In this document: in pieces, positions 19,171 to 21,635 of the stretch
How positions within the stretch are numbered: the stretch's first letter is position 1
How the letters are laid out: the number at the start of each line of letters is the position of its first letter
DNA from: a virus
Length of the DNA: 40,181 nucleotides
Strand: one strand, 5' to 3'
IMG/VR virus record: IMGVR_UViG_3300037069_001029
Span: 1-40,181 of that record
Position numbers and translations under genes: made by a program
The notes under the pieces: model-generated
Seen by the model: the letters and a program-made list of their open reading frames with translations, nothing else
Told to the model about the DNA's origin: nothing
Database searches by the model: none

Positions 19171-19869
19171 TTATTCCTTCGTTAATTGTGATAATAGCTC
19201 TAATAGATCAGATGCTTCTTGTTTCCAATAGGCATACTCAGCAGACCTAGCAGCCCAAGAAGCAGAACTAGCAGCAGCCCAAGAAGCAGAACTAGCAGCA
19301 GACCAAGCAGCAGAACTAGCAGCAGACCTAGCAGCAGACCAAGCAGCCCAAGAATCAGACCTAGCAGCAGAACTAGCAGCAGACCTAGCAGCCCAAGAAG
19401 CAGACTCCCAATCTATAGAACATGTATTACTTAATAATTCTGTTTCATGGCATTTCTTAACAGCATTTATAGCAATTATGACTTGCTTTAATAGTCCACT
19501 ATTATCGTCATTGATATTCCTAGTTTGTAGATCAATTAATCTATTCATCCTGCGTATAGCTAATTGATGCTTGATGGGCTCAACATCCATACCAACTGGT
19601 ATTGCAGAAAGAAATTGTTCCGGCCAAAACATCGCCTCTTCTCCTGGCAATCCTTCAAATATTCTATCTTCTAAATGAGCAATCCATTTAGGTAATCCAA
19701 GTTCAATTGGGTAACTAGAGTGATCGTAATTTTCTAATGTGCAACCGACTGCGCAACCTTTCCCATCTTCCCAGCCAGTTCCTTGAATAATATTATCAAG
19801 CTCGCGATGTTTTCTTACTCGATCTAAATATTTCTGTTTTATAGAATCGTCATTGTGAAAGCTAAGCAT
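19171..19869 (-). CDS. SAA-repeat protein
   Basis: 232 aa with AAGGAATAAAC before ATG 19869. Residues 1-150 are a globular part with conserved-looking motifs (GTGWEDGKGCAVGC near 31, YPIELGLPKWIAHLEDRIFE near 53, FWPEQFLSAIPVG near 80). I recognise this combination from phage and prophage proteins of unknown function. Residues about 155-210 are a tetrapeptide-like run of SAAR/SAAS/SAAW units, then a helical C-terminus. The Ala/Ser/Trp repeat should form a long helix or solenoid, and its DNA can expand or shrink by slippage. No enzymatic motif is visible. Confidence 0.7.
   Translation of the reverse strand: MLSFHNDDSIKQKYLDRVRKHRELDNIIQGTGWEDGKGCAVGCTLENYDHSSYPIELGLPKWIAHLEDRIFEGLPGEEAMFWPEQFLSAIPVGMDVEPIKHQLAIRRMNRLIDLQTRNINDDNSGLLKQVIIAINAVKKCHETELLSNTCSIDWESASWAARSAASSAARSDSWAAWSAARSAASSAAWSAASSASWAAASSASWAARSAEYAYWKQEASDLLELLSQLTKE
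19241..19408. repeat. Tandem repeats encoding SAA units
   Basis: Short imperfect repeats built from two elements, agcagacctagc and agcagcccaaga (12-15 nt), recur about a dozen times. On the minus strand they encode the Ser-Ala-Ala-(Arg/Ser/Trp) run of the 19171-19869 protein. The opposite strand is also open, giving an Arg/Ser/Pro-rich shadow with no start signals. Confidence 0.8.
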
Positions 19870-19939: not shown

Positions 19940-20293
19940 TTATCCATTGCCATTACCCCGTCCATTGCCATAATCAGAGTCAGAGATAGAGCTATACCCA
20001 TAGCCAGAGCTAGTGCAACATCCACCATTACCAGAGCCATAGCCAGAGCCAGAGCCATGAACAGATCCATTGCCATTACCCCGTCCATTGCCATAATCAG
20101 AGTCAGAGATAGAGCTATACCCATAGCCAGAGCTAGTGCAACATCCACCATTACCAGAGCCATAGCCAGAGCCAGAGCCATGAACAGATCCATTGCCATT
20201 GCCCCATCCATTGCCATAACCAGATCCAGATCCACAGTCAGAGCCATCACCATTGGAAAAACCATAGCCATCACTTTTCATTATGCTTTCCAT
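19940..20293 (-). CDS. Glycine-rich MES-family protein 5 (array end)
   Basis: 117 aa, last and longest of five tandem paralogues. It opens with MESIMKSDG, the array signature, and continues as Gly-X repeats (GSGSGYGSGNGG) with Tyr, Ser, Asp and Asn. A 41-residue block including CCTSSGYGYSSISDSDYG occurs twice because of a 123-bp duplication. A CysCys pair occurs in each block. The stop lies 6 nt before the start of the previous paralogue's reading region in the repeating pattern TAA-6 nt-ATG. Such Gly/Tyr-rich chains suggest an unstructured or beta-arched surface polymer. Function unknown. Confidence 0.55.
   Translation of the reverse strand: MESIMKSDGYGFSNGDGSDCGSGSGYGNGWGNGNGSVHGSGSGYGSGNGGCCTSSGYGYSSISDSDYGNGRGNGNGSVHGSGSGYGSGNGGCCTSSGYGYSSISDSDYGNGRGNGNG
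19942..20200. repeat. Perfect tandem duplication, 123-bp period, 2.1 copies
   Basis: The block beginning atccattgccattacccc at 19942 repeats exactly from 20065 and begins a third time at 20188, until the first mismatch at 20201. The period of 123 bp is 41 codons, so the Gly-rich reading frame is kept. Identity between the copies points to a recent event. Confidence 0.88.
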
Positions 20294-20299
20294 AAAGAT

Positions 20300-20509
20300 T
20301 TATCCATATCCAGATCCATCGCCATATGTACAACCACAACCAGATTCATCATCATAACCAGATCCAGATCCGGATCCATCGTCATACCCATAGCTAATGT
20401 CATATTCAGATATATATACACATCCTGAACCAGTGCAATCATCGTAACCGTATCCAGATACATAACCATCCCCAGAGCCATAGCCATCACTTACCATTAT
20501 GCTTTCCAT
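20300..20509 (-). CDS. Glycine-rich MES-family protein 4
   Basis: 69 aa: MESIMVSDG signature, then Gly/Tyr/Asp/Ser repeats (GSGDGYVSGYGYDDCTGSGC). It has five Cys residues, more than most of its siblings, and an off-pattern YISEYDIS segment, so the body has diverged while the first nine residues stayed fixed. It is 6 nt from each neighbour. Translation is probably coupled along the array since only a weak GGA lies upstream of each ATG. Confidence 0.55.
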   Translation of the reverse strand: MESIMVSDGYGSGDGYVSGYGYDDCTGSGCVYISEYDISYGYDDGSGSGSGYDDESGCGCTYGDGSGYG

Positions 20510-20515
20510 AATGAT

Positions 20516-20749
20516 TTATCCGTTGCCATCGGAAGAGCCAATGCCATTGGCATTGAGATCTCCAAAGCCAATTCCACGACCATCGCCAAAGCCATAGACA
20601 ATGTCACTACCAAGACCATCACCATCGCCAGAGCCATATCCAATGCCATTACCCCAGCCATAGCCAGATCCATCGCCATATCCAATGCCATTACCCCATC
20701 CATAACCATAGCCATCATCAGAACCATCACTTACCATTACGCTTTCCAT
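20516..20749 (-). CDS. Glycine-rich MES-family protein 3
   Basis: 77 aa: MESVMVSDG signature, then a partly duplicated core (GYGWGNGIGYGDGSGYGWGN). It contains no Cys, unlike copies 2 and 4. The C-terminal half wanders from the pattern (GLGSDIVYGFGDG, GDLNANGIGSSDGNG). 6 nt separate it from both neighbours. Confidence 0.55.
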   Translation of the reverse strand: MESVMVSDGSDDGYGYGWGNGIGYGDGSGYGWGNGIGYGSGDGDGLGSDIVYGFGDGRGIGFGDLNANGIGSSDGNG

Positions 20750-20755
20750 AATGAT

Positions 20756-20947
20756 TTATGCATTGCCATCACCATCACCATCACCATAACCATTGCCATA
20801 ACCATTACCATAACCATAGCCATAGCCAGATCCAGATCCAGAGCCATCACCAGAGCCATAGCTATATCCAGACCCTGATGGATAGCAATAGCCACACCCA
20901 GAGTCAGAGCCATATCCAGAGCCATCACTTTTCATTATGCTTTCCAT
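20756..20947 (-). CDS. Glycine-rich MES-family protein 2
   Basis: 63 aa: MESIMKSDG signature, then Gly alternating with Tyr, Ser and Asp, ending in GYGYGYGNGYGNGYGDGDGD. Two Cys (CGYC) occur near residue 18. Upstream of its ATG is a 36-nt spacer after the first paralogue's stop; elsewhere the spacer is 6 nt. Confidence 0.55.
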   Translation of the reverse strand: MESIMKSDGSGYGSDSGCGYCYPSGSGYSYGSGDGSGSGSGYGYGYGNGYGNGYGDGDGDGNA

Positions 20948-20983
20948 AATGATCTCCCACCCGACCCCACTGCCATAGACAGA

Positions 20984-21142
20984 TCAATAGTCATCACCAT
21001 TGCCATAGCAATAGACATCGCCGTAGCCATATAAAGATCCAACGCCATCGCCATCACCATCGCCAGAGCCATAGCCAGAGCCATAGCCATCGCCAGAGCC
21101 ATAGCCAGAGCCAGAGCCATCACTTACCATTACGCTTTCCAT
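20984..21142 (-). CDS. Glycine-rich MES-family protein 1 (array start)
   Basis: 52 aa, first of the array. MESVMVSDG is followed by very regular GSGYGSGDGYGSGYGSGDGD and a less regular tail ending CYGNGDDY. Its ATG lies 13 nt inside the 3' end of the DUF6948-like gene, in another frame. The same TATGGAAAGC(A/G)TAATG sequence is repeated at the start of every other paralogue, so the array seems to have grown by tandem copying of this junction. Confidence 0.55.
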   Translation of the reverse strand: MESVMVSDGSGSGYGSGDGYGSGYGSGDGDGDGVGSLYGYGDVYCYGNGDDY

Positions 21143-21501
21143 ACTGGGACGTTCTTAATACTTTTTTTAGCTGCTTCAGTTACATTCAAAATCTCTATTG
21201 CTTCTAGCAATTCAACTCGATCGACTTCACATGGAAATTTGCATTCATTAGGTTTTGATGTTCCTTCCTGTGCTAATTGAGATAAGCTTGCAGCGCCCGC
21301 CCATTGCCAAATTCTTCTCGCATTATGCATGACGACTTCTCTGCCGTTTCTTGATATCAATTCTCCAGCAAACACACCGGCGCTATATGTTCTGACTATC
21401 ACATATCGTCCATCTTCTTTTTTATGAGAACTATCAACATTTGCAGTTAGAGCTTGTAATTCTTTGATCTGCTTAAGTGTTAAATCGTTAATGTCTATCA
21501 T
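21130..21501 (-). CDS. DUF6948-like small phage protein
   Basis: 123 aa. ATG 21501 has GGAG 9 nt upstream; reading further upstream runs into the tRNA-like gene. The pattern RYVIVRTYSAGVFAGELISR, EVVMHNARRIWQWAGAASLS, then VELLEAIEILNVTEAAKKSI and a final VWK matches my recollection of DUF6948, a phage family of unknown function. A small beta domain with conserved Arg-Arg-Ile-Trp is followed by a helical tail. In other phages this gene is also often next to Gly-rich ORFs, as here. The last 13 nt overlap the first Gly-rich gene, which suggests linked expression. Confidence 0.7.
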   Translation of the reverse strand: MIDINDLTLKQIKELQALTANVDSSHKKEDGRYVIVRTYSAGVFAGELISRNGREVVMHNARRIWQWAGAASLSQLAQEGTSKPNECKFPCEVDRVELLEAIEILNVTEAAKKSIKNVPVWKA

Positions 21502-21532: not shown

Positions 21533-21635
21533 GGAAATCGGAGAGATTCGAACTCTCGACGCCCCATGTATTGCTCCTATTAGCACATCAGGCGTTTCAA
21601 ATAGGTAAGGTTTCAGCCTCTCACCCACGATTTCC
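21533..21635 (-). tRNA. tRNA-Ser(GCU)-like gene with 15-nt insertion in the anticodon arm
   Basis: Read on the minus strand there is a perfect 7-bp acceptor stem (GAAATCG/CGATTTC, extendable by G/C to 8), TG at positions 8-9, a serine-type D arm (GGT-GAGAGGCTGAA-ACC), and a 5-bp T stem with loop TTCGAAT. A GTGCTAA loop gives a GCU anticodon followed by TAGG. Its natural 5' partner CCTA lies 15 nt too far upstream, so the anticodon loop would have 22 nt instead of 7. Removing 15 nt leaves 88 nt, normal for tRNA-Ser without CCA. The discriminator is C rather than the usual G, CCA is not encoded, and the variable arm is weak. It may be a degenerate, intron-bearing or non-translational tRNA. Confidence 0.6.

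Follow-up and report, generated by a model that had tools for sequence, protein, structure and literature searches.

Comparison of phage genomes indicates that a gene of the DUF6948 family and a short gene overlapping its end, which encodes a glycine-rich (Gly-X)n chain, make up a very common and undescribed phage module, and in the phage analyzed here the chain gene is present in five copies. Given the Sm/LSm fold predicted for DUF6948, we propose, with a probability of roughly 0.4, that the module specifies an Sm-like assembly of the phage, for which separate genes provide a low-complexity tail in trans. No description of the DUF6948 fold or of its near-constant overlap with a Gly-X gene was found in the literature searched.

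The window, that is, the whole stretch of 40,181 nucleotides analyzed (IMG/VR record IMGVR_UViG_3300037069_001029), carries the array directly behind the DUF6948 gene and on the same strand. A first-pass annotation had described five tandem glycine-rich ORFs of 52, 63, 77, 69 and 117 aa sharing the start MES(I/V)M(K/V)SDG, and all five are indeed found at the positions it gave, each continuing after this leader as Gly-X repeats. The features of the region are the following:

21130-21501, minus strand: DUF6948 gene (Pfam PF22253), 123 aa counted from MIDINDL...; the mechanically called ORF extends to 21567
20984-21142, minus strand: Gly-X unit 1, 52 aa, with its start codon within the last DUF6948 codons (13-nt overlap, 21130-21142)
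21116-21142, minus strand: leader of unit 1, ATGGAAAGCGTAATGGTAAGTGATGGC, its first 13 nt inside the DUF6948 gene (which reads ..W-K-A-stop in its own frame)
20954-20958, minus strand: Shine-Dalgarno-like GGGAG of unit 2, 6-nt spacer ATCATT, read directly from the sequence
20756-20947, minus strand: Gly-X unit 2, 63 aa, the sole unit with a clear Shine-Dalgarno sequence
20921-20947, minus strand: copied leader of unit 2, 24/27 nt identical to unit 1
20516-20749, minus strand: Gly-X unit 3, 77 aa, 6 nt past the stop codon of unit 2
20723-20749, minus strand: copied leader of unit 3, 26/27 nt identical to unit 1
20633-20716, minus strand: internal 42-bp repeat of unit 3
20300-20509, minus strand: Gly-X unit 4, 69 aa, 6 nt past the stop codon of unit 3
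20483-20509, minus strand: copied leader of unit 4, 26/27 nt identical to unit 1
19940-20293, minus strand: Gly-X unit 5, 117 aa, 6 nt past the stop codon of unit 4
20267-20293, minus strand: copied leader of unit 5, 24/27 nt identical to unit 1 and 27/27 to unit 2
19942-20224, minus strand: in-frame 123-bp tandem repeat of unit 5, 2.3 copies, 98%

The gaps between the five ORFs measure 36, 6, 6 and 6 nt, so that three spacings of 6 nt are present and not the four previously counted, and ribosomes terminating on the preceding unit probably reinitiate across these short gaps to translate units 3-5. The repeat periods in the window range from 6 to 123 bp and are multiples of 3; since unit 5 carries the 123-bp tandem repeat, part of its length can be attributed to recent duplication. 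A near-perfect hairpin, CATTATG-GAAAG-CATAATG, surrounds the start of unit 2 (window 20929-20951, minus strand) and occupies the equivalent place in units 3 and 4. It could hide the start codon until an upstream ribosome arrives, but it is probably incidental, because it is absent by eye from other arrays. The next gene downstream of the array (window 19171-19869, minus strand), built from 12- and 45-bp DNA repeats, also encodes a low-complexity protein, whose tail consists of Ala/Ser/Trp/Arg repeats (SAAWSAARSAASSAAW...), so that two repeat proteins adjoin.

The leader shared by the units has a simple origin. Unit 1 starts inside the final DUF6948 codons (GTATGGAAAGCGTAA, ..VWKA*), and units 2-5 each carry a copy of the same leader with no DUF6948 gene in front, the first 27 nt of any two units being identical at 23-27 positions. 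The "fixed leader" is a translation start that has been copied, its first part reproducing the DUF6948 3' end with its embedded start codon. Its residues are also explained in this manner: residue 2 is encoded by a Gnn codon because the TGG codon overlaps there, and residue 4 is I, V or L in 84/99 loci because the DUF6948 stop codon provides its last bases, the V/I and E residues of the leader thus being largely forced by overlap with the DUF6948 Trp and stop codons. The conservation of the leader noted in the first-pass annotation stands, but the leader is in itself no evidence of a diversifying family, since its first part is a copied DUF6948 end containing a start codon. The annotation was nevertheless right that this is a real gene family with a conserved leader and fast-changing bodies, the latter being seen in the pair L102/L124, which are 98% identical across 300 nt that end at the stop codon of DUF6948, whereas 25 aligned codons of their Gly-X bodies differ and one 24-codon indel separates them.

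Whether these ORFs are genes cannot be read from the window by itself, where the hexanucleotide repeats are open in a Met-Ala/Leu frame as well as in the Gly-X frame, which makes the open frames weak evidence of coding. The coding claim rests instead on comparison with relatives, which favors the Gly-X frame. Across the examined loci, the codon preceding the terminal Trp ends in a base that creates, together with TGG, an ATG (or GTG) from which the Gly-X frame follows. This wobble base is A or G in 104 of the 109 distinct DUF6948 loci having the terminal Trp; a Gly-X ORF begins at that start in 98 of the 101 evaluable A/G loci and in none of the 5 loci with C or T. Wobble A occurs in 84/94 Val/Ile codons at the start position, compared with 21/107 in a nearby conserved Val codon used as a control (Fisher p=1e-24, a value not corrected for phylogeny). 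Moreover, a Shine-Dalgarno-like motif lies upstream of the Gly-X ATG in 68/99 loci against 8/99 control segments, taken 60 nt upstream. The chains themselves are constrained in composition: X is S, Y or D at about 80% of positions, with Tyr at about a quarter of them, and Ala at X was observed 9 times, about 25 times fewer than predicted for independent bases, while the third base of the Gly codons varies (C/T/G/A = 2377/697/322/207). Unit 1 shares the general plan of the DUF6948-linked chains, namely an overlapped start and a (Gly-X)n body with X mostly S/Y/D/N/F/H/C, and 95% of the chains are net acidic. Indels between the bodies of close pairs are multiples of 3 and keep the frame. Taken together, the conserved start, the wobble selection, the Shine-Dalgarno enrichment and the constrained X beside varying Gly third bases argue that the Gly-X chains are translated proteins and that the wobble base of their start codon is under selection.

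The association is also widespread. A viral scan with the DUF6948 alignment retrieved relatives on at least 510 IMG/VR contigs, and DUF6948 was also found in genome assemblies of bacteria and archaea whose labels span many phyla. A Gly-X ORF accompanies DUF6948 in nearly all relatives having enough flanking sequence (128 checked, window excluded), and the mention in the first-pass annotation of Gly-rich ORFs beside DUF6948 genes in other phages is thus extended to an association constant among relatives, present on at least several hundred phage contigs. Among viral contigs, the exact window leader was found in no other phage; Gly-X arrays with leaders of their own do lie beside DUF6948 elsewhere. 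Separate arrays, each copying its own leader, are present in L109, L139, L142, L065, L072, L102 and L180; in the last, from the Rhodobacteraceae phage LS06-2018-MD06 (L180 49-460, minus strand), two tandem Gly-X ORFs have leaders that copy the 3' end of another upstream gene (..LLNV*), unrelated to DUF6948. A tree built from 117 DUF6948 proteins requires 11 changes of the multi-copy state, at least 5 of them forced by supported branches, and by this reconstruction multi-copy arrays arose repeatedly. Five is the maximum number of copies seen, although contig ends may hide more elsewhere.

Several observations bear on the genomes and annotations in which the module is found. DUF6948 has an accessory distribution, as it is absent from 11 long contigs with related terminases, in a search run with a positive control; two short, near-identical pieces among terminase relatives (L013 and L014) gave no DUF6948 or Gly-X match. 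A tight link with SSB, hinted at by the window and Pectobacterium phage Koroua, is not general, since a recognizable SSB occurs in only 5/45 carriers, and the genomic context points to no single pathway. Public records misname some Gly-X genes as 'adsorption protein' or 'lamprin' (L184 1722-2057; L185 1734-2048). Matches of Gly-X chains to the Pfam family TrAA12 are low-complexity noise, with the window units falling below the cut-off, and the DNA similarity to Pantoea phage AH07 and Escherichia phage SM_A2 lies in PEPEPE-coding repeats on the opposite strand and is coincidental.

The DUF6948 protein of the window is a secure member of its family (PF22253, E=1.7e-32, 111.8 bits against a gathering cut-off of 27). 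Its AF2 model, built from 12 sequences, is a five-strand barrel (pLDDT 89.4, pTM 0.74), and in a Foldseek search of the PDB the best 50 matches listed were all Sm, LSm or archaeal SmAP chains, with probabilities of 0.95-1.00, moderate E-values (6e-3 at best) and a target TM-score of up to 0.74. No LSM or Hfq profile matched any of the 12 members and no PDB sequence was matched, although one member showed a weak SM-ATX profile match (E=0.054); in an alignment (A1) inspected by eye and not based on structure, neither the canonical Asp/Asn of Sm1 nor the Arg-Gly of Sm2, which are RNA-binding residues, is obviously conserved. An Sm/LSm fold is therefore a prediction from the model, and as such it provides the first testable function for DUF6948. 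In the window, a tRNA-like element (21533-21634, minus strand) overlaps the 5' region of the DUF6948 ORF; it scores 32.4 bits with the Rfam tRNA model (gathering 29), is not called by ARAGORN, and has good acceptor and T arms, with about 34 nt replacing the normal anticodon arm, being possibly a degenerate or intron-bearing tRNA.

A second family predicted to have the Sm fold accompanies Gly-X genes as well. Gp37 of Eggerthella phage PMBT5 matches the DUF6948 model at rank 8 and overlaps the Gly-X gene gp38; a sequence relative of gp37 in Manatee Spring phage MW202566 (L182) is followed by a Gly-X gene, and the same is true of a remoter relative in MW202613. The PMBT5 pair resembles that of the window in that a predicted Sm-fold protein overlaps a Gly-X ORF, and differs from it in that gp37 lies outside DUF6948 by sequence, a single Gly-X copy is present, and the two genes are annotated as 'hypothetical' and 'adsorption protein'. 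As this family also precedes Gly-X genes, the pairing of a predicted Sm fold with Gly-X is wider than DUF6948. A third Sm-like-looking family, sought with a consensus as query, matched one record, with no adjoining Gly-X gene.

These results can be combined in the following model. The phages carry an accessory module with two kinds of gene, one for a predicted Sm-fold protein (DUF6948) and the other for short acidic low-complexity (Gly-Ser/Tyr/Asp)n chains, which are made separately and started through translational overlap with the DUF6948 gene. Like its structural relatives, the Sm protein would probably be a ring; it may bind nucleic acid, most likely RNA. The chains may act as its trans-supplied low-complexity tail and, by associating with it and with one another, may form a nucleoprotein assembly, or adjust one, in the infected cell. 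Duplication has given this phage five copies of the tail gene, with the start region copied each time. The proposal of a tail supplied in trans derives from the Sm proteins known to have fused tails and from the Tyr-rich X positions, as Tyr-rich chains are typical of condensate formers. Among the functions suggested in the first-pass annotation, an RNA-binding condensate gains indirect support from the predicted Sm/LSm fold, whereas neither a secreted matrix nor a phase-variable surface is supported, the latter because length changes come as multiples of 3, which keep the frame; neither a signal peptide nor a hydrophobic stretch is visible by eye in the leader. A more general statement, that tailed phages widely encode a split Sm RNP, namely a ring protein of Sm fold with a condensate-forming low-complexity tail from a separate, overlapping and duplicable gene, in which tail dosage and type are set by copy number and not by the length of a fused tail, is rather doubtful.

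Other explanations start from the same data. The array could be repeat DNA, subject to slippage or forming a G-quadruplex-like GGN4 element, that is open by chance and only incidentally translated, as the hexanucleotide repeats open in two frames and the evident tandem duplications would allow; the wobble selection, the contrast of 98/101 with 0/5 loci, the depletion of Ala at X, the close-pair indels in threes and the Shine-Dalgarno enrichment make this very improbable, and no G-quadruplex bias is seen, because GGG makes up only 9% of the Gly codons. The chain could also be a C-terminal extension of DUF6948 reached by -1 frameshifting, so that Sm core and tail would be fused as in Acinetobacter Hfq. 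The Gly-X frame is in fact -1 relative to DUF6948, the overlap is short, and a single profile, PHROG 18306, matches both Gly-X (59-136) and DUF6948 (149-233), which hints at fusions somewhere; yet slippery heptamers (X-XXY-YYZ) occur in 0/99 overlaps, the conserved wobble creates ATG or GTG, and units 2-5 have no DUF6948 in front, so that we give frameshifting hardly any weight. No DUF6948-Gly-X fusion was present among the examined loci.

Two further readings accept the chains as proteins and assign them other tasks. They could build a regular repeat scaffold of silk-like or solenoid beta type, in which Gly lines one face and S/Y/D the other, serving as a binding or fiber module to which the Sm-fold gene is merely a neighbor or chaperone. 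Gly-X is indeed N-terminal to a longer protein in L011, L012, L060, L061, L170-L172 and L174, and the C-terminal domain concerned is elsewhere joined to leucine-rich repeats (L062) or ENSRVEAWGNS repeats (L090), so that Gly-X may be one of several interchangeable repeat modules. We consider a scaffold improbable, since in most phages, this one included, the chain has no partner domain, a sequence that is acidic and purely Gly-X lacks a hydrophobic core, the minus-strand array lies away from the long plus-strand tail-type genes (6.8-16.8 kb), and the PDB offers no fold match for the C-terminal domain. Alternatively, the module could be a mobile anti-defense or host-takeover cassette, its acidic chains being polyanionic decoys (nucleic-acid mimics) whose number and length vary in an arms race. 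The accessory distribution, with 11 long terminase-related contigs lacking DUF6948, the fast evolution of the bodies beside a conserved gene, the repeated formation of arrays and the negative net charge of 95% of the chains would agree with such a role. It is unlikely all the same, because no similarity to known anti-defense proteins was found in Pfam or PHROGs, the charge density is low, at about -0.1 per residue, whereas that of known DNA mimics is far higher, and the constant Sm-fold partner is left unexplained.

The domain at the C terminus of the long Gly-X proteins deserves mention in its own right. In the eight loci listed above, it is conserved as IDGVPT..AHGDT..WH..LTGSC, with invariant His and Cys, and its AF2 model (pLDDT 91), together with the lack of a fold match in the PDB, suggests a possibly new domain. 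It occurs with three kinds of repeat, that is, Gly-X, leucine-rich (Riemerella phage CRP6, L062 2309-2917, annotated 'ribonuclease inhibitor') and ENSRVEAWGNS (L090 5500-6300), the phage of L090 also having DUF6948 and Gly-X.

The trans-tail proposal can finally be set beside known systems. The gp38 adhesins of T-even phages, which are tail-fiber tip proteins, contain Gly-rich motifs with polyglycine-II packing; they share only the Gly richness, and neither the strict Gly-X alternation nor the non-tail position of the module fits them. Low-complexity regions of prokaryotes and phages are strongly depleted of aromatic residues and Cys (PMC6821194), in contrast to the Gly-X chains, in which about one X residue in four is Tyr. 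In yeast, a Gln/Asn-rich C-terminal region of Lsm4 acts in P-body assembly (PMC5087693), a case of an Sm-fold protein with a low-complexity tail in RNP granule assembly; Lsm4 differs in being eukaryotic, fused, Q/N-rich and part of a defined Lsm ring. If the partnership proposed here is true, phages possess Hfq/LSm-like assemblies of their own, whose tail is supplied in trans, and they would offer a natural system for learning how the number and composition of low-complexity chains control nucleoprotein assemblies. In the Hfq of Acinetobacter baumannii, an Sm core carries a long Gly-rich acidic low-complexity tail with 12 GGFGGQ repeats, the number of which affects RNA binding and autoregulation (PMC11617691). 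The phage module would have the same two parts differently arranged: its core is DUF6948 and not Hfq by sequence, and where the Moraxellaceae-type tail belongs to the same polypeptide as the core, the tail here, in which Gly and X alternate strictly, has a gene of its own that overlaps the core gene and can be present in multiple copies.
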